DNA of 64,000 bases from a virus. Below the pieces are notes generated by a model. The model saw only the letters and a list, made by a program, of their open reading frames with translations, was not told the DNA's origin and searched no databases. The position numbers and the translations under genes are program-made. Within the stretch, counting starts at the first letter, position 1. Each line of letters opens with the position of its first letter. This document shows, piece after piece, positions 11,019 to 43,783 of this stretch. Where the stretch lies: IMG/VR virus record IMGVR_UViG_3300010388_000214, positions 1 through 64,000 of that record; one strand, 5' to 3'.

Positions 11019-11073
11019 TGAATAGTATCATCACCTAGCATCACTCAACGATATTCACTGGTGGTGGTATATT

Positions 11074-11143
11074 GCTCCATAGCTCAACGGCAGAGCAGGA
11101 AGCTGTTAACTTCAAGGTTCCTGGTTCGAATCCAGGTGGGGCA
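11074..11143 (+). tRNA. tRNA-Asn (GTT)
   Basis: A cloverleaf can be drawn: acceptor GCTCCAT pairs with GTGGGGC (with G-T pairs), D-arm AGCTCA..GAGC, anticodon loop CTGTTAA with anticodon GTT, T-arm CCTGG-TTCGAAT-CCAGG. The base of the anticodon stem has a G-A mismatch. CCA is not encoded. Confidence 0.85.
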
Positions 11144-11156
11144 GCGAATAACTAAA

Positions 11157-11335
11157 TAGCGTATAAGTTTACTCTAGGTCTCTGAACAATACCTAGAGAA
11201 AATGATGCAACCGAAACTATCGTTGCTGCTTCCATTCGGATAGCCGTTCAGGGCGAGTCCACTAAGGGGGTATGCTAGGTTGTACAGCCATTGGGTGTTT
11301 CGCATAGGCTTAATCCTGTCCCACGAATGGCACTT
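11157..11335 (+). other. Structured spacer between tRNA-Asn and tRNA-Asp
   Basis: About 180 nt without a convincing ORF. It holds an 8-bp hairpin CTCTAGGT/ACCTAGAG (11172-11179 with 11191-11198) and a second one closed by GCCATT/AATGGC (11287-11292 with 11326-11331). It could be processing signals of the polycistronic tRNA transcript or a small RNA. No further tRNA cloverleaf is seen. Confidence 0.4.
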
Positions 11336-11409
11336 GGCCCTATAGCTCAGTTGGTTAGAGCGTCTGCCTGTCACGTAGAAGGTCGCCAGTTCAAGTCTGG
11401 TTAGGGTCG
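11336..11409 (+). tRNA. tRNA-Asp (GTC)
   Basis: Acceptor GGCCCTA pairs with TAGGGTC, discriminator G; D-arm AGCTCAGTTGGTTAGAGC; anticodon loop CTGTCAC gives GTC; T-arm CCAGTTCAAGTCTGG. All arms are well formed, 74 nt. CCA is not encoded. Confidence 0.93.
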
Positions 11410-11480
11410 CAATAGGTAAGAATGATCAGCTTACCTGCCGACAGTCGGTCGCTCGTAGGGAAAGCGATACCCCTACTCTT

Positions 11481-11552
11481 GCCCCTATAGCTCAACGGTA
11501 GAGCACCTGTCTTGTAAACAGGAGGTTGTGATCTCGGAATTCACTGGGGGCC
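11481..11552 (+). tRNA. tRNA-Thr (TGT)
   Basis: Acceptor GCCCCTA pairs with TGGGGGC; D-arm AGCTCAACGGTAGAGC; anticodon stem CCTGT/ACAGG with loop CTTGTAA, anticodon TGT. The T stem is weak (GTGAT with TTCAC, one mismatch) and the loop is TCGGAAT-like. Short hairpins fill the spacer before it (11410-11480). The FmdB-like gene starts 15 nt downstream. Confidence 0.85.
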
Positions 11553-13655: not shown

Positions 13656-13940
13656 ATGGACAAGCATGAGTGGAAAGATCTAGGATCTTGCAGGGACTAT
13701 GACACTAACTTATTCTTTGATAAGTATGAAGATAATCTTGAACTCAGGCCTGCCATTGACAAGCTATGTTCTGACTGCCCAATGGTAAAGCAATGTTTTG
13801 CTGTTGGTGTCTCTCAGAAAGAATGGGGAGTCTGGGGAGGTGTGTATATTGAGAATGGAAAAATTTCCAGGGAATTCAATAAGCACAGGTCTAAAGAGGA
13901 TTGGTCTCAAACCTGGCAATATCTAACGATGGATAATTAA
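13656..13940 (+). CDS. WhiB-family transcriptional regulator
   Basis: 94 aa with the WhiB layout: single Cys (GSCRDYD, residue 12), then CSDCPMVKQC giving C-x2-C-x5-C, and the GVWGGVY turn. The four cysteines bind a [4Fe-4S] cluster; the C-terminal basic tail is short (FNKHRSKEDW). WhiB proteins bind the host sigma factor region 4 and are found only in Actinobacteria and their phages, so this gene is the strongest host marker. Phage WhiB proteins can repress host whiB genes and exclude superinfection (known for phage TM4); that role here is inference. Confidence 0.92.
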   Translation: MDKHEWKDLGSCRDYDTNLFFDKYEDNLELRPAIDKLCSDCPMVKQCFAVGVSQKEWGVWGGVYIENGKISREFNKHRSKEDWSQTWQYLTMDN

Positions 13941-15327: not shown

Positions 15328-17235
15328 TTAATGATATGCTTTTGCTCTGTAGTTAATAAAGATGTTTTCGTAGCCACGGGCACGGAAGTCTTGGCACACA
15401 ACGACCATTTCGCAATCGCCTTCACCAGTCTTCTTATTGATCCAGTGGTGTCTAGCACCTTCCTGGAATGGCTTGGCACGGTACAGGCATAGTCCGCTAG
15501 AGGTAGACAGGTACCTTCCATAATGCTTTGTTCGGTATCCGTCTTCAAGGGGGAACACACCAGGCTGGTATTCATCTGTAGTCCTGGTAGCCCATACGTC
15601 ATAGAATGTACCGTTTGGACGAACAGACATGGCAGAGACAACGTCAAAGTCTGGCTCAAGTGTTTCAAATTCAAGAAGCTCCCTGATGTCACCCACACCA
15701 AACTTTACGTCACCCTCAAACATGAGCACGTAGTCGGCGGTATCTAAGAAGCCTGCAGCCTCAATAGCCTTGTTTCTAGCAATGGACAGATTCATAACTC
15801 TTTCTTCATCCTTAACAGAACCAAAATACTTAGTGTTAACATTCTCACTAATGATCGAGATACCCTTAAGCATGGACCAGTCAAAGCTAAACAACAACCT
15901 CTTAGTGCTATCGGTAGAGTCGTTCTCATAAATAGACAAGTAGAACTCATGTTCTGGGAAAGCCTTTACCACATCAGCGATCTGCTTGTGGTACTGCCCC
16001 ATTTGCTTTTCTCTATTACGAATAATAGAATACATAAGTATCTTCTTTTTAGGGATCAATTTCTTGATTGCTTTGTTTAGTGCCTCTGCACTTAGCATTG
16101 ACTCTACAACATCTTTAAATTCACCCTGGATCTTCTCCCAGTCAAAGCTCTTAGCAAGCTTGTAGCTGCTTTCTGACAAACTAGCGTATACCTTGGTATC
16201 CCCTAGTTTTAAAATGGCTTCTACCATTTCGTCAGAATTGTCTCCAATCAGCATACATGAGCTAATTTCTTCTCCAGAGAACCCTCTGGCACCGACGGTA
16301 GAAGAAACAATGGGAAGGCCATAGCTTAACGCCTTCATAACCTTAAGGTGTGTGCCTGCTCCACTCTCCATGGGGTTAATGAATACACCAGAAGACTTAA
16401 ATAAATAGTCTAATGTTTCGTCATCGACCTTGCCAAGGATTTCGATGTTGTCAGATGGCTTCATTGTTTTAAGAGCATTGCTTGCGTCACCAACAACCTT
16501 GAAGGTGTAGTCTGGCAAAGCCTGAGCAATTGGAAGAAGGTTCTTTGCTGCAACAACGTTTGGTGGGTGACCGCTACCAACAAACAAAACAACTTTGTTG
16601 TTTCTGGATACATCAGCATCTGGCTTTCTAATCTGCGTACCGTTTGGAATATACACAGACTTCTTGTTTGTCTTGTAGAACTCACGAATCTTCTGCTCGT
16701 CTTGAGTTGAACAGTAAGTGTAAAGGTCACAAAGATTTAGGGCAAGCTCCTCCATCTGAGCCGTAACCTTTAGGTCTAAAGAGTTTACTTTGTATAGTTG
16801 TTCAGCAAGTGTGATCTCTGCATTGTGTGACGCATAGATAACTGGTAAGTTATTTACATTAAGTTCATCAAATAAAGGTGCTGTTGCAAAGTGATCGAGA
16901 ATAACTAAATCAGTATCCTTTAACTCTTTTCTAACAACATTCTTAAACTTTGTCATAAAGTCTTTTAGCAAGTAAATGGTTAGGTCACGACTTTTGCCAT
17001 CCAGTCTCTGCCTCTGGTTGTTGCCTCTTCTTGCTGTGCCTGGGTCAGCTGCATAAACAGAAAACTTTGTGCCATCTGCGAGGGTAGTGCTATGATCTTC
17101 TCCACCCCAACTAAAAGCCACAACGTGTACGTCATGCCCACTAATAGATTCTAAGAGTTTAAATGATCTTTCTGACCCACCAGAACTTGTGTCTAACATG
17201 TTTGGGTTTGCTGAGATTACTAATATTTTTGCCAT
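15328..17235 (-). CDS. Two-domain glycosyltransferase (GT-B GT4-like plus GT-A-like)
   Basis: The frame extends to 17325, but ATG at 17235 (MAKILVISANPN) is 9 nt downstream of TATACT, a leaderless arrangement. The 635-aa protein has an N-terminal GT-B fold: SGGSERSFKLLE, NGTQIRKP, VVLFVGSGHPPNV, ETLDYLFKSSGVFINPMESGAGTHLKVMKALSYGLP (the E-x7-E donor site region). From about residue 400, KKKILMYSIIRNRE, IYENDSTDSTKRLL and ADYVLMFEGDVKFG form a GT-A domain similar to Anp1-type enzymes. Likely it decorates a phage or host glycan. It is divergent from the Dps gene. Confidence 0.85.
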   Translation of the reverse strand: MAKILVISANPNMLDTSSGGSERSFKLLESISGHDVHVVAFSWGGEDHSTTLADGTKFSVYAADPGTARRGNNQRQRLDGKSRDLTIYLLKDFMTKFKNVVRKELKDTDLVILDHFATAPLFDELNVNNLPVIYASHNAEITLAEQLYKVNSLDLKVTAQMEELALNLCDLYTYCSTQDEQKIREFYKTNKKSVYIPNGTQIRKPDADVSRNNKVVLFVGSGHPPNVVAAKNLLPIAQALPDYTFKVVGDASNALKTMKPSDNIEILGKVDDETLDYLFKSSGVFINPMESGAGTHLKVMKALSYGLPIVSSTVGARGFSGEEISSCMLIGDNSDEMVEAILKLGDTKVYASLSESSYKLAKSFDWEKIQGEFKDVVESMLSAEALNKAIKKLIPKKKILMYSIIRNREKQMGQYHKQIADVVKAFPEHEFYLSIYENDSTDSTKRLLFSFDWSMLKGISIISENVNTKYFGSVKDEERVMNLSIARNKAIEAAGFLDTADYVLMFEGDVKFGVGDIRELLEFETLEPDFDVVSAMSVRPNGTFYDVWATRTTDEYQPGVFPLEDGYRTKHYGRYLSTSSGLCLYRAKPFQEGARHHWINKKTGEGDCEMVVVCQDFRARGYENIFINYRAKAYH

Positions 17236-17278
17236 TGTAATAATAGTATACCATCTCCGCTGTGTTATAATTATAGGT

Positions 17279-17725
17279 ATGGAACAACTCATTAGCCTAC
17301 TGAAGGCACTGCTAGCAGACAACATTACATTACGCTTTAAGGCACAAGGATACCACTGGAACGTCGAGTCGGATGACTTCGCACAGTTCCACAGTTTTTT
17401 CGGAAAGATCTACGAAGACTTTGAGGGTGCAACCGATGCACATGCAGAGTGGATCCGTATGCTTAACGCCTACGCTCCTTACAGAATCTCAGAGTTCTTT
17501 GACTCTACCTCTATCTCAGAGCCACTGATTGTCGGAGATGCAGAAGAAATGATTGCAGATCTTTACGATGCGGTAGAGAAGCACAAGGAAGACCTTATTG
17601 CTGCAGGTATTGTAGCCAATGGACTTAACGAGTTTGGCCTTGCAAACTTCTTGGCAGAGCGACAGACTGCTTGCCAGAAGTGGTGCTGGCAGTTACGCTC
17701 TAGCATGGAGATGGAAGAAGACTAA
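17279..17725 (+). CDS. Dps/ferritin-like DNA-protection protein
   Basis: TATAAT (17266-17271) ends 7 nt before the ATG, so the message is probably leaderless. The 148-aa protein has LRFKAQGYHWNVESDDFAQFHSFFGKIYEDFEGATDAHAEWIR, which contains the ferroxidase H-W and D..E residues of Dps. Further helices give the four-helix bundle. It would oxidise and store iron and shield DNA from peroxide. It overlaps the next gene by 1 nt, in an operon with head-associated proteins. Confidence 0.82.
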   Translation: MEQLISLLKALLADNITLRFKAQGYHWNVESDDFAQFHSFFGKIYEDFEGATDAHAEWIRMLNAYAPYRISEFFDSTSISEPLIVGDAEEMIADLYDAVEKHKEDLIAAGIVANGLNEFGLANFLAERQTACQKWCWQLRSSMEMEED

Positions 17726-18087
17726 TGCCATACAAGATTAGCGGTAAGGGTAACGCACTTGGTTGCTCTGGATACGGAGTACAGGATGATGCTGGTAAGA
17801 CAGTTGGATGTCACGCTACCCGTGCAGAGGCAGAGGCTCATGTAGCAGCTCTTTACGCTAACGTAGAAGATGCTAAAGACATGTCTTTTACTGTTGACCC
17901 AAAGTACCCTGGAGCTGGTATTAAGCGTCCAGAGCAGGGTAGAGCAGGTGGAAAGACTGGTTCTGGCATTAGAAGTCAGTACGGTAAGAAGCCAAAGAAA
18001 ACAAATCGTGGACGCTCTCCAGATGCACTTAACAGTAACGGTGCACTTGGAACAACTGGTGGCGGCATGTCTCTTGGAGGAATATAA
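17725..18087 (+). CDS. Phage structural-type protein with CHATRAEAEAH motif, 120 aa
   Basis: The N-terminus (GNALGCSGYGVQDDAGKTVGCHATRAEAEAHVAALYANV) is a small module often found in actinophage capsid-maturation or head proteins. The C-terminal half is Gly/Lys/Arg-rich and disordered. ATG overlaps the Dps stop. Role likely virion-associated, inferred from domain occurrence. Confidence 0.65.
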   Translation: MPYKISGKGNALGCSGYGVQDDAGKTVGCHATRAEAEAHVAALYANVEDAKDMSFTVDPKYPGAGIKRPEQGRAGGKTGSGIRSQYGKKPKKTNRGRSPDALNSNGALGTTGGGMSLGGI

Positions 18088-18605
18088 TGGATGATTTAAT
18101 TAAGGCACAAGGACCCTGCTGGGATGGATATATGCAGCGAGGAATGAAGCCTGGTGAAAACGGTAAGATGGTCCCCAACTGCGTACCTGCAAAGAAGGCA
18201 GACGATCTATGGGAAGACGATGACACAGTTGAGTATGACACTGAGTCCATGGCAAAGGCAGAAGGCTACTCTCCTCCTGCTGGTGCACGCTCTGCTGCTC
18301 GTAGAGCAATTAAGTTTAAGGAAGATGGGAAGGCAACTGGTGCAGGTACAGCTGTAGGTTGGACTCGTGCAGGTCAGCTTGCTAGAGGAGAGACCCTGTC
18401 TCTTAGTACTGTTAAGCGTATGTACTCATATTTTTCTCGTCACGAGGTAGACAAGAAGGGTAAGGATTGGGCAAACCAGTCAAACCCATCTAACGGATAC
18501 ATCATGTGGCTTGCATGGGGTGGAGACGCAGGGTATTCCTGGTCACGTGGCATCGTAGAGCGTGAGAAAAATAAAAAATTCTGGCAAGGCTCAGCCTTTG
18601 AGTAA
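18087..18605 (+). CDS. Conserved phage protein with CWDGYMQRGMKPGENGK module, 172 aa
   Basis: N-terminal CWDGYMQRGMKPG..VPNCVP is a short Cys-pair module common in actinophage head/protease proteins. The second half (YSPPAGARSAARRAIKFKEDG..., LSTVKRMYSYFSRHEVDK, SNGYIMWLAWGGDAGYSWS) is a domain often fused to prohead proteases or portals in other phages. Here it stands alone. Its enzymatic role is unknown. Confidence 0.7.
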   Translation: MDDLIKAQGPCWDGYMQRGMKPGENGKMVPNCVPAKKADDLWEDDDTVEYDTESMAKAEGYSPPAGARSAARRAIKFKEDGKATGAGTAVGWTRAGQLARGETLSLSTVKRMYSYFSRHEVDKKGKDWANQSNPSNGYIMWLAWGGDAGYSWSRGIVEREKNKKFWQGSAFE

Positions 18606-18624
18606 TTAGTGGTACAATTAAAAC

Positions 18625-18906
18625 ATGAGTACATTACACAATCTTTATACAGTGGGAACCACACAGGTTGCCGTCTCCGAGCCATCTACAACATCTGGTC
18701 GTGACGTCACTATTCAAAACGTAAACGCTTCTGGATACATCTATGTAGGTGGCACAGGAGTGACTACCGAAAATTATGGATATAGAATTTCAGCCAACCA
18801 CGCTATCTCTTTTGAGTTAGACTCACAAGATGAACTATACGTTATTGGATCAACAAGCAACATGAAGGTTGCTGTAATCTCTATCAACTTAGAAGGAAAG
18901 CAGTAA
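18625..18906 (+). CDS. Small beta-rich structural-type protein, 93 aa
   Basis: TACAAT (18613-18618) ends 6 nt before the ATG: a predicted leaderless start. The product (MSTLHNLYTVGTTQVAVSEPSTTSGRDVTIQNVNASGYIYVGG...) is made of beta-strands ending in MKVAVISINLEGKQ, typical of small head-decoration or tail-surface proteins in large phages. Overlaps the next ATG. Confidence 0.68.
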   Translation: MSTLHNLYTVGTTQVAVSEPSTTSGRDVTIQNVNASGYIYVGGTGVTTENYGYRISANHAISFELDSQDELYVIGSTSNMKVAVISINLEGKQ

Positions 18907-19358
18907 TGGCTAGGTTTACTAATCCAGCAACCGCATCAGACCTAAACCTTGTTGTTGTAGATACGTCATACGTTCTAGGTGGTGGAACCCTGAATGGTAG
19001 TCAGCCAACTTTTAATGGCGATCCACTTTTTGCTGGTAGCTATGTAAAGGTTGGAAGTCTTGTACACTTTAGAGCCACGGTGACGATGACAAACATTACT
19101 GGTTTTGGTACTGGACAATACTACATGACGCTACCGTTTAACGCCAAGTATGAAGAGTATATTCGTGGTGGTCATCTTCACGATAACTCTACCAACAAAT
19201 TTTACTCCATCTCTGCACAAACTACACCAGGATCAAATGTCATTAAGCTTTGGACTACAGCAAATAATGGTGACGACGTACCGTTTACATCGTCTGTTCC
19301 ATTTAACTTGGCAGTAGCAGATGACTTCCATGTCTCTGGTAGCTACATCGCAGCTTAA
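18906..19358 (+). CDS. Beta-sandwich-like structural protein, 150 aa
   Basis: Ser/Thr/Gly-rich sequence with alternating strands (VKVGSLVHFRATVTM, TGQYYMTLPFNAKYEEYIRGGHLHD, NKFYSISAQTTPG). Such proteins in phages often cap or decorate the virion. Same operon as the preceding gene. It ends 1 nt before the 3' end of the oppositely oriented tmRNA. Confidence 0.65.
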   Translation: MARFTNPATASDLNLVVVDTSYVLGGGTLNGSQPTFNGDPLFAGSYVKVGSLVHFRATVTMTNITGFGTGQYYMTLPFNAKYEEYIRGGHLHDNSTNKFYSISAQTTPGSNVIKLWTTANNGDDVPFTSSVPFNLAVADDFHVSGSYIAA

Positions 19359-19359
19359 G

Positions 19360-19681
19360 TGGAAGTGCAGGGAATCGAACCCTGGTCCTAGTATGAGGCT
19401 AACCGTACTTCTACATGTTTAGCTAGTTTAACTAATACAGACAGAGATGTTACTAGCAACACTCTGCCCAACTATACCATCCTAAGAAGCGTCACTTTAT
19501 TTTAAGAACTTGCCGCTCAGCGTGACCACTGCTAACAAGGTGCTTTCGCAGACAACCTAAGCTGCTAGAGCGTATTCGGCGTTATATTTTGCACTTATCC
19601 GATTGACACAAGTGAATTGTTTGTGCCCGTCAATACATGCTTCTCCAGATATCCGATACTAGTCGAAAACCTTTCACTCCC
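19360..19681 (-). ncRNA. ssrA: tmRNA
   Basis: On the minus strand the 5' end GGGAGTGAAAGG..TTCGACT and 3' end with T-arm CAGGGTTCGATTCCCTG and CACTTCC-A fold into the tRNA-like domain (GGGAGTG pairs with CACTTCC). The tag frame reads GCA AAA TAT AAC GCC GAA TAC GCT CTA GCA GCT TAG = AKYNAEYALAA-stop (about 19557-19592). It ends in YALAA as host actinobacterial tags do. CCA is not encoded. tmRNA rescues stalled ribosomes and marks the products for proteolysis. The HNH gene lies 8 nt upstream in the same orientation. Confidence 0.94.
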
Positions 19682-19689
19682 CTATTTAG

Positions 19690-20112
19690 TTATGAGTCTA
19701 GTGTAGCATATTCTTCTGGGAATAATCTAGCATTGGTACGAAGTTTGTGGCAGTTTGAGCAGACCACATCGCACTTTGCAATCTCTTCCCAGGCCTTGTC
19801 GGGACCGTACTTTTTTAGGATGTGGGAGACCTGACCAAACTTCTTAAACTCTGGTAGGTGATCAAACTCTAGTACATAGTGGGGGTAGTCCTTCTCACAA
19901 TCAATGCAACCCATACGTTCTTTGTATGCCTGGATCGCCTCTAGCTCGCTGCCGTGCTCATGACGCATCTTCTTTGATACGTTAACTTTAGAGTCTCTAT
20001 TTAAATGATAAGAGATGACGGTCATTTCACAATTCAATTCACGTTGGATATCTGCATAAGAGGCACCTGCCATTCTCATGTTAACGATTCTCTGTTTGAT
20101 TGTAAGACTCAT
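19690..20112 (-). CDS. HNH endonuclease with N-terminal HTH
   Basis: 140 aa. The N-terminus has an HTH (MAGASYADIQRELNCEMTVISYHLNR). The nuclease part has CIDCEKDYPHYVLEFDHL and CDVVCSNCHKLRTNAR: two CxxC zinc knuckles with D-H, N/S and H catalytic positions of the HNH family. TATACT ends 7 nt before the ATG (leaderless). The gene shares a 30-nt divergent promoter region with the gene at 20146 and is directly upstream of tmRNA. It is probably a free-standing homing-type or defence nuclease. Confidence 0.88.
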   Translation of the reverse strand: MSLTIKQRIVNMRMAGASYADIQRELNCEMTVISYHLNRDSKVNVSKKMRHEHGSELEAIQAYKERMGCIDCEKDYPHYVLEFDHLPEFKKFGQVSHILKKYGPDKAWEEIAKCDVVCSNCHKLRTNARLFPEEYATLDS

Positions 20113-20145
20113 TGATAATAGTATAGCAGATGATATAATTGATTG

Positions 20146-20835
20146 ATGGATTACGTTTATATCACCCGTGGCGGTGACAATGAGGAGCTTCGATACTCTT
20201 TAAGATCCATAGCTAAAAACGCTCCAGAAGGCCGTGTGTGGCTTGTAGGAGGTAAACCAGATTGGTTTGCTGGTGGACACATTCCAGTTAGGGATACTGG
20301 TGGCAAGTTTAAGAACATAGCCGCATGTTTGTTGGCTGCAGCAAGCTCAGAAGAAATCTCCGAAGACTTTGTTTTAATGAATGATGACTTCTTTATTTTA
20401 GAAAACATCGCAAACTTTTTACCCCTATACGGTGGCACCCTTGCTTCTAAGATTGCCGCATACACGGACCTGCTAGGTCCCACAGCATACTCAGGTCTAC
20501 TTGGCAGAGCCATGAAATACATGCAGTCTAAAGGGGTAAAGGAACCTTTAGACTACGACATCCACGTGCCGTTACCAATTAATAAAACAAAGTTTCTTGA
20601 GGTTGTCCCACGTGATACGCTTGCTCCACGTTCTGTATATGGAAACCTGGCAAACATCGGCGGTAGCGAGATCGTTGACGTAAAGACATACAACAATGCT
20701 AGGTATAGATCAAAGTCCTATACATACGACAAAGACAATTCACCATTCATATCAACCAATGATGATTCGTTTGCTATCTTATATGATAACGTTCTTAAAG
20801 AAATGTTTCCAGAGCCATCACAGTACGAGTCCTGA
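20146..20835 (+). CDS. Stealth-like sugar-phosphate transferase / glycosyltransferase
   Basis: ATG 20146 is 6 nt after TATAAT (20134-20139; TTGATA-like -35 overlaps the divergent HNH promoter). The 229-aa protein opens MDYVYITRGGDNEELRYSLRSIAKNAP, continues GRVWLVGGKPDWF and has FVLMNDDFFIL, the D-D motif typical of Stealth-type capsular phosphotransferases and GT-A enzymes. Later PRDTLAPRSVYGNLANIG is less typical. It overlaps the FkbM methyltransferase gene tail-to-tail. Likely modifies a surface glycan. Confidence 0.75.
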   Translation: MDYVYITRGGDNEELRYSLRSIAKNAPEGRVWLVGGKPDWFAGGHIPVRDTGGKFKNIAACLLAAASSEEISEDFVLMNDDFFILENIANFLPLYGGTLASKIAAYTDLLGPTAYSGLLGRAMKYMQSKGVKEPLDYDIHVPLPINKTKFLEVVPRDTLAPRSVYGNLANIGGSEIVDVKTYNNARYRSKSYTYDKDNSPFISTNDDSFAILYDNVLKEMFPEPSQYES

Positions 20836-21468
20836 GTTAATCCAGATTTGATCCTGGATACCCTCCCACTGATACGATGTATGGCAAAGTAAGAAGCCAC
20901 GCTCAAGCATAAGGTCTATAACCATGTTGTTATTCTTGTGTCCTGGGTGTCTGTCAAACATTTCTGTTTCTAAATGAAATAGTTTGACATTGTGAACGTA
21001 GTCACCCATGCCCATAATAAATTCATAGCTGTACCCCTCAATATCTACCTTGACAATATCTATGGTTTTTTCCTGCAGCTTATTGGATTCAATAAACGTA
21101 TCCATTCTTGTTACTGGCACAGTAATCGTATTGTATGTGGCTTCCTCAAAGAATGAAAAGTTTTCGATAGAGGAAGACCCCTCATGATCCTTGTCATCAG
21201 AAACTATTTGAGTAAACTCTGTTGTGCCATCATACTCGTGAACGGCAGTATAAAAGGTTTTAAATCCTGGGTAGTTTTTCTTAATGTTTTCAATCGCCAA
21301 TGGGTTGGCATCGATTGCGTAGACATACCTAGTCTTAAGTTTGTTTCCTATATAAGACGCATCGTGACCATCACGAGAACCAACATCAAATAGTATGGTT
21401 GCTTTGTCCCCAAAGTATTCTTTATACTGTTCTACTATTGGATCAAGCCATTCATTATTCTTAATCAT
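20818..21468 (-). CDS. FkbM-family methyltransferase
   Basis: 216 aa. SAM-binding ILFDVGSRDGHDASYIG (motif I, residues about 25-41), YVYAIDANPLAIENIKKNYP (motif post-I), and the FkbM hallmark IDIVKVDIEGYSYEFIMGM. These enzymes O-methylate sugars or small molecules. TATAAT ends 8 nt before the ATG. Adjacent to a sugar transferase, so it probably caps a glycan. The exact substrate is unknown. Confidence 0.88.
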   Translation of the reverse strand: MIKNNEWLDPIVEQYKEYFGDKATILFDVGSRDGHDASYIGNKLKTRYVYAIDANPLAIENIKKNYPGFKTFYTAVHEYDGTTEFTQIVSDDKDHEGSSSIENFSFFEEATYNTITVPVTRMDTFIESNKLQEKTIDIVKVDIEGYSYEFIMGMGDYVHNVKLFHLETEMFDRHPGHKNNNMVIDLMLERGFLLCHTSYQWEGIQDQIWINSGLVL

Positions 21469-21485
21469 ATTATCTAATTATACAG

Positions 21486-21558
21486 TACCCTCGACAGGAT
21501 TCGAACCTGCGGCACATGGGGTAGAAACCCATTGCTCTATCCACTGAGCTACGAAGGC
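21486..21558 (-). tRNA. tRNA-Arg (TCT)
   Basis: Minus-strand acceptor GCCTTCG pairs with CGAGGGT; D-arm AGCTCAGTGGATAGAGC; anticodon stem ATGGG/CCCAT with loop TTTCTAC, anticodon TCT; T-arm GCAGGTTCGAATCCTGT. 73 nt, discriminator A, no encoded CCA. It decodes AGA, a codon that looks frequent in the phage tail genes. Confidence 0.94.
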
Positions 21559-43086: not shown

Positions 43087-43105
43087 CGAGACAATTCTAT
43101 TGTAG

Positions 43106-43176
43106 CACCCCACCGAGGAATTGAACCCCGTCCAACAGGTTTGGAATCTGTCATGCTGCCGTAACACTTGTGAGAT
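43106..43176 (-). tRNA. tRNA-Trp (CCA)
   Basis: Minus strand acceptor ATCTCAC pairs with GTGGGGT (two G-T pairs), discriminator G; D-arm GTGT/GCAT; anticodon stem ACAGA/CCTGT (one mismatch) with loop TTCCAAA, anticodon CCA; T-arm CGGGG-TTCAATT-CCTCG. A weak cloverleaf, but all arms present. Confidence 0.78.
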
Positions 43177-43264: not shown

Positions 43265-43783
43265 TAACATGTAAAGAAAATCGCAAAAACTTTACATATC
43301 GCCTAACATGTCTTATGTCAAATGAAAGACAACTTTACTTTGTAGAAAACAAATGAAAGCTAAATGAGGTTTACTTTCATTTAATGCCTTATATAGTCGT
43401 CATAAAGTTGGTTAATGCCTGTTATATTCGTCATTATTCAACTATTCGGGATTTCCGAACAGTTCACTTATTCGGTTTTTCCGAACAACTCAAATCAGTA
43501 CGTACCTTCCGAAAACCAGGAAAAGTTGGTGTCAAACCACAATAATTGGTTTAAATCGGAACGAACATTCTTATCTGTTACCATTTCGTTATCATTCTGT
43601 TACATATCTGTAACATTTACCCATATTCAAACCATATCTCGGATTCTGGGAGGTTAAGGTTTGAGGTTTGGGTATGTAATTCTCACCGCGAACTTTACGC
43701 CGTCGAGCTTTGCGATGCTTATTCATCTTAGTTATCAACATGTTGTGGATAACTTTTAAAAAGGACACTATAATAGTAATATC
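43265..43783. other. Intergenic region with inverted repeats and DnaA-like box
   Basis: About 500 nt. Two copies of a TTCGG-N3/4-CCGAA palindrome (43446-43460 and 43471-43486) in a 25-bp direct repeat, ACATGTAAAG/CTTTACAT arms (43268 and 43298), several GTTAC/GTAAC motifs, CAAACC/GGTTTG motifs near 43650-43670 and TGTGGATAA at 43744-43752. Apart from the tentative minus-strand microORF at 43592, no gene is seen. It separates the minus-strand field from the late + genes and probably holds operators. Confidence 0.5.
43592..43726 (-). CDS. Tentative basic microprotein, 44 aa
   Basis: Frame MNKHRKARRRKVRGENYIPK then PQTLTSQNPRYGLNMGKCYR; very basic start. No clear ribosome-binding site. Kept because the N-terminus looks protein-like; it may be chance. 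Confidence 0.3.
   Translation of the reverse strand: MNKHRKARRRKVRGENYIPKPQTLTSQNPRYGLNMGKCYRYVTE

Follow-up and report, generated by a model that had tools for sequence, protein, structure and literature searches.

Phage-encoded tmRNAs are already well known. PMC9004378 counts a tmRNA in 402 of 18,146 phage genomes and states both helper and host-protein-degradation hypotheses for the molecule, and ten tmRNA-bearing phages are named in PMC4131195. The descriptions of the Streptomyces BE phages (Stanwilliamsviridae) each report a tmRNA, and Bxz1, likened here by description only, is likewise a large actinophage with a phage-encoded ssrA. The methylophage Melnitz, whose aquatic host is likewise streamlined, also has a tmRNA, but one that is permuted, two-piece and of alphaproteobacterial type, with a glutamine riboswitch, according to PMC9004378. 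The isolated Nanopelagicales phages described in PMC10202952 are 39-kb phages and, subscription papers aside, no published report of a tmRNA in Nanopelagicales phages was found. The virus DNA analysed here (the window, a stretch of 64,000 nucleotides from a 95.6-kb virus record) carries a further example of this known kind of gene, in a phage with the Streptomyces BE phages among its relatives.

The tmRNA gene and its surroundings

An earlier note, made from the letters of the window, had claimed a phage-encoded tmRNA with the tag AKYNAEYALAA. ARAGORN calls such a one-piece gene (Table 1), and the full RF00023 model (1-374) matches at 19357-19681 (-) with an E value of 2.9e-35, well over its gathering score of 47 bits, which bears out the claim by the covariance-model check proposed with it. 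The locus is also the one proposed, although ARAGORN starts it at 19359 rather than 19360 and places it on the minus strand, where no strand had been given. This is the sole RF00023 match in the whole record.

The molecule shares with one-piece RF00023 tmRNAs a tRNA-like domain with the G3.U70 acceptor stem and the T-arm, a long P2, the resume site ATAAGTGCA with its resume codon, a short tag with an ALAA-type end (YALAA), a stop and pseudoknots. G3.U70 is the identity pair by which AlaRS recognizes its substrates for alanine. It is kept in 20/20 viral tmRNAs, though acceptor pairs 4-6 vary and other pairs of the stem covary, and in 8/8 members of the covariation set. An automatic rule for this pair failed in three of 90 host rows (L160, L189 and L193), where the script seems to have taken a stretch past the gene end. 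These rows are Nanopelagicales ssrA genes, the putative host order, from the 90 of 97 genomes over the cut-off that were retained, seven being dropped for contig ends or lowest scores.

The 3' end of the window gene reads A-CTT, with CCA not encoded, and directly abuts the stop codon of a convergent ORF (18906-19358). This is ordinary among host-order ssrA genes, most of which are alike in this respect (CCA encoded in 24 of the 90). A near-twin tmRNA in record G001, with the same tag and 96% identity, has an encoded CCA.

Table 1. Positions of the tmRNA, its parts and its neighbouring features in the window
Feature	Position	Strand	Basis or remark
tRNA cluster: Asn(GTT), Asp(GTC), third tRNA	11073-11552	+	ARAGORN, Rfam, by eye
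WhiB-like gene	13671-13844	+	PF02467, 43.9 bits
tmRNA (ssrA), one-piece, 323 nt	19359-19681	-	ARAGORN; RF00023, 93.8 bits; covariation
3' pseudoknot (third ring)	19422-19468	-	second arm GCUAGU/ACUAGC: double changes at 3/6 pairs
PK2 pseudoknot	19491-19539	-	second arm GUCAC/GUGAC: 5/5 pairs changed on both sides among relatives
Tag frame GCA AAA TAT AAC GCC GAA TAC GCT CTA GCA GCT TAG (AKYNAEYALAA, stop)	19557-19592	-	ARAGORN and alignments
PK1 region	19592-19627	-	covariation in the first stem; CACUU/AAGUG a plausible second arm
Acceptor stem, 5' strand GGGAGUG, pairing with 19361-19367 CACUUCC and keeping G3.U70	19675-19681	-	sequence comparison
HNH endonuclease gene, next upstream of the tmRNA and on its strand	19690-20112	-	PHROG phrog_3106, E 1.1e-19
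Extended -10 promoter-like TGCTACACTA, within the last HNH codons	19699-19708	-	conserved upstream block
tRNA-Arg(TCT), ~2 kb upstream of the tmRNA	21485-21558	-	ARAGORN
tRNA-Trp(CCA), weak	43105-43176	-	ARAGORN; Rfam 34.2 bits, gathering 29

In 10 of 13 loci, the tmRNA is preceded by an HNH gene on its own strand. The sequence before the tmRNA is too short in L310, one of the three exceptions, and the other two, L237 and L269, are different contexts. A block of approximately TGNTAYACTAnnnYATAAYTnAATAG is found upstream of 8/8 related tmRNAs, G032 departing from it at one mid-block base. It reads as an extended -10-like element and, behind it, a short leader of which part is outside the HNH frame. 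A consensus promoter scanner makes no call at this block. The window has four copies of the element TGNTAYACTA where 1.7 are expected, a count equalled in 9 of 100 shuffles, and the full record is not enriched in it either. As the excess in the window is not significant, a widespread phage promoter family is not supported.

Two other promoter-like sites, divergent from each other, occur between the HNH and Stealth-like genes, namely TTGATA-16-TATAAT (20112-20139, +; 11 of 12) and TGCTATACTA (20113-20128, -), the latter of the same type as the site upstream of the tmRNA. The region 15328-21468 around the tmRNA also encodes a two-domain glycosyltransferase, a Stealth-like protein (below cut-off) and an FkbM methyltransferase, and these sugar- and methyl-transfer genes are perhaps for surface glycans.

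The five tRNAs counted in the earlier note were all located in the window, four by ARAGORN (Asn, Asp, Arg and Trp) and the fifth by Rfam only. The latter, a tRNA-like gene at 11481-11552 (+), appears by eye to be Thr(TGT) with a non-standard T-loop. The tRNA-Arg(TCT) gene likewise stands 2-3 kb upstream of the tmRNA in L002, L230, L232 and L233, and ARAGORN finds no tRNA in the remaining 31.6 kb of the record. In BE phages, the tmRNA belongs to a tRNA array or is close to one, whereas that of the window is placed between the HNH gene and the convergent gene.

Pseudoknots and tag peptide

For the covariation analysis, eight related viral tmRNAs were aligned and a pseudoknotted structure was written from the window sequence. 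In this alignment, 91.4% of 488 cells are paired and both sides have changed in 30 of 62 pairs, compared to a mean of 13.1 in shuffles (0/500 reach 30) and to 6-9 when the structure is slid as a control. These figures do not include the second arm of PK1, whose partner, the resume-site stretch, is invariant; by eye, this arm is seemingly absent in L231. The first stem of the 3' pseudoknot fits the alignment poorly (66% of cells). Failure to fold into pseudoknot rings had been put forward as an argument against the tmRNA, and compensatory changes instead support the pseudoknot arms, including two second arms. The single-sequence fold is not significant (z -1.36), as expected because a pseudoknotted RNA was folded by a pseudoknot-free program, and RNAalifold, which cannot draw pseudoknots, gives a fold partly different from the written structure. 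Three rings are counted in the window tmRNA and the usual fourth is not seen, four being typical of tmRNAs as described in PMC11915505. This missing ring could lower the activity of the molecule.

ALAA-type tag ends are read by ClpXP. Tags were compared among 20 viral tmRNAs (the window, 12 IMG/VR contig loci and seven BE phages). The underlying survey gave 56 calls in 91 loci, some of these loci being copies of one contig; the calls outside the 20 were omitted by eye as other tmRNA types, and the scan behind the choice of rows covers the 80 stretches listed of 119. Relatives carry tags such as AKYTPEEYALAA, ADIKTQYALAA, ANDKTKYALAA and ADKSQFALAA, and the viral first halves include AKYNAE, AKYTPEE, ADIKTQ, ANDKTK, ADKSQ and ADKSS. 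The end is [YF]ALAA in 19/20 (YALAA 11, FALAA 8), with YALAA codons that vary synonymously, the remaining one being ALVTV in Streptomyces phage Circinus. In the 90 host-order loci, two extra 'tmRNA*' calls (L113 and L145) being set aside, there are 47 distinct tags whose first halves vary likewise and whose ends are FALAA (57), YALAA (23), LALAA (5), LTLAA (3) or VALAA (2).

AKYNAEYALAA is absent from all 90 host-order tags, so that the tag does have a first half of its own, as the earlier note stated, with the YALAA end intact. That this half is special is not supported, however, because it varies among relatives and among hosts; judged from these sequences, its differences look like ordinary drift. 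The retained degradation end speaks against a re-direction of stalled products, also suggested in the note, and a special re-directing tag was rejected as the main reading since host-order first halves are equally variable and the end is conserved.

Other tags depart further from the usual pattern. In Circinus (MK620896, L222, 1501-1796), the tmRNA frame gives ADNIDAEYEALCAEYALVTV, with no LAA end and an intact acceptor stem. Ten IMG/VR tmRNAs (L249, L252, L260, L267, L286, L287, L290, L302, L306 and L309) have long tags of about 25 aa, conserved in frame, with the motif ENF[LF]..A....GE[LV]A[VL]A and ends LAVA, VALA or VAVA rather than LAA. A search with L267 and L260 against annotated phages gave no match.

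Relatives, putative host and a short RNA of BE phages

The terminase of the window phage is ~53% identical to a Streptomyces BE phage terminase, which makes it a likely terminase kin of this group. As in the large actinophages invoked in the earlier note, a full tmRNA of 267-298 nt is present in 7/7 BE phage records examined, with tags mostly ending in [YF]ALAA; unlike them, the window tmRNA has a different tag half and falls outside their tree clade. In Rhodococcus phage Peregrin, the RF00023 score is only 14.4 bits. Compared to annotated phages at the nucleotide level, the window tmRNA gives only two weak 35-base matches, in two copies of one phage.

WhiB is used as an actinobacterial marker gene in PMC6802176. 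It is found in 22 of 27 records searched and, among 14 control genomes, in Corynebacterium only. The window phage is an actinophage by this criterion, and Nanopelagicales is its putative host order from WhiB and one terminase relative at 62% in a Nanopelagicales MAG, which may be merely a binned phage contig.

A tree was built from 107 distinct tmRNAs, and the program warned of long branches. A branch supported at 99/99 separates all 88 host rows from the viral ones. Among the latter, the seven BE phages make up one clade (100/100), and twelve IMG/VR rows including the window form a weak group (73/20). As the host rows stand apart, the window tmRNA is no recent host copy. It also differs from host ssrA in its tag, and at 323 nt it is ~45 nt shorter than the host genes (362-394 nt in the 90 Nanopelagicales loci). 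Within the viruses, a tmRNA over the cut-off is present in three of 35 terminase-related contigs, many of which are fragments; contigs G009, G011 and G016, at 98-116 kb, have none. The tmRNA is an accessory, dispensable gene in the wider clade.

Besides the full tmRNA, the BE phages Yaboi, StarPlatinum and EGole carry an RNA of ~80 nt that matches the tRNA-like part of RF00023 alone, at NC_048730 85821-85901 (L224), MH576965 87769-87849 (L225) and NC_055791 87963-88042 (L226). Its scores (43.0, 41.6 and 36.5 bits, respectively) are all under the gathering value of 47, and ARAGORN does not call it a tRNA in Yaboi or EGole. It keeps G3.U70 and has the invariant core GAAAGCCGACAATGGA; across nine sequences, 153/153 cells are paired, and three helices show one double change each. 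By BLAST, 82 Streptomyces phage records contain it, a GenBank entry and its RefSeq copy being taken as two. The matching records number 92, and in the 60 rows listed for them no annotated feature lies under it; in a second listing three of 45 rows have a tRNA-Val there, which looks like a neighbouring gene. The short RNA resembles the DS6A molecule, described in PMC4131195 as little beyond a tRNA-like domain, and by this analogy it is possibly a decoy for SmpB or AlaRS. Model R1 finds no convincing copy in the window phage: the best score is 15.3 bits (43543-43636), compared to 101-112 for true copies and ~14 at the window tRNA-Arg and the tmRNA itself.

A probable role in ribosome rescue, and alternative readings

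The window RNA most likely assists ribosome rescue as an auxiliary molecule and has an extended -10 promoter of its own, and it is probable that it is a functional, phage-owned actinophage tmRNA that supplements host ribosome rescue in lytic growth. SmpB is found in 0/4 phage records searched and in 60/60 genomes of the putative host order, and a search of the phage record for ClpP gave nothing; therefore, host SmpB and host proteases would be needed. For expression, charging, tagging and the benefit to the phage, we infer the following course. The phage would transcribe the tmRNA from its own promoter, host enzymes would append CCA, and AlaRS would charge the RNA through G3.U70. Host SmpB would deliver it to ribosomes that have stalled at a broken mRNA or at one of the non-stop kind; these ribosomes would restart at GCA, append AKYNAEYALAA and terminate. 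The released ribosome would return to phage mRNA translation and the tagged fragment would go to a host protease of ClpXP type. The net effect would be that host ribosome rescue is topped up during lytic growth.

A broader scheme, in which the clade takes over host ribosome rescue with ring-reduced tmRNAs competing for SmpB and setting the tagged products, the Streptomyces branch adding the ~80-nt RNA to decoy SmpB or AlaRS, is unlikely. It is distinctly doubtful that the window tmRNA itself acts as a competitor that draws SmpB or AlaRS from host ssrA and thus dampens or retargets host quality control. The failure to find SmpB in the phage would fit such competition, as would the short RNA of the related BE phages and the mycobacteriophage DS6A-like molecule with a tRNA domain only, which is described as inhibiting tmRNA, perhaps by titrating SmpB. 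The window RNA, however, retains a full mRNA part, the resume site and a selected tag, and no short copy was found in its phage.

The tmRNA might instead be a replacement copy resisting a host nuclease directed against tmRNA or tRNA in abortive defence. Resistant phage tRNAs are proposed in PMC10264068, tmRNA is cleaved by HigB in M. tuberculosis according to PMC3912914, and the phage has an RNA unlike host ssrA together with five tRNAs of its own. This role is nevertheless improbable, as the tag and loop differences fit drift and no cleavage site is known. Finally, although integration commonly takes place at the 3' end of ssrA, as described in PMC11915505 and PMC9004378, a host relic or pseudogene (a host-derived pseudogene was raised as an objection in the earlier note), such as a piece of ssrA that imprecise excision left behind as an attachment site, is very improbable and was rejected from the comparison with host sequences, the tree position, the full length with covarying helices, the conserved promoter-like block and gene order, and the failure to find a tyrosine integrase in the record.

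With the supplementary rescue RNA proposed here, uncultured actinophages gain a tmRNA lineage that covariation supports and in which the order of HNH gene, promoter-like block and tmRNA is conserved. The tag end that is kept, together with a first half drifting as in hosts, argues for ordinary degradation tagging and not for a changed destination of the tagged products. Because close relatives have the tmRNA only patchily, comparing them offers a test of what such a gene is worth to a phage.
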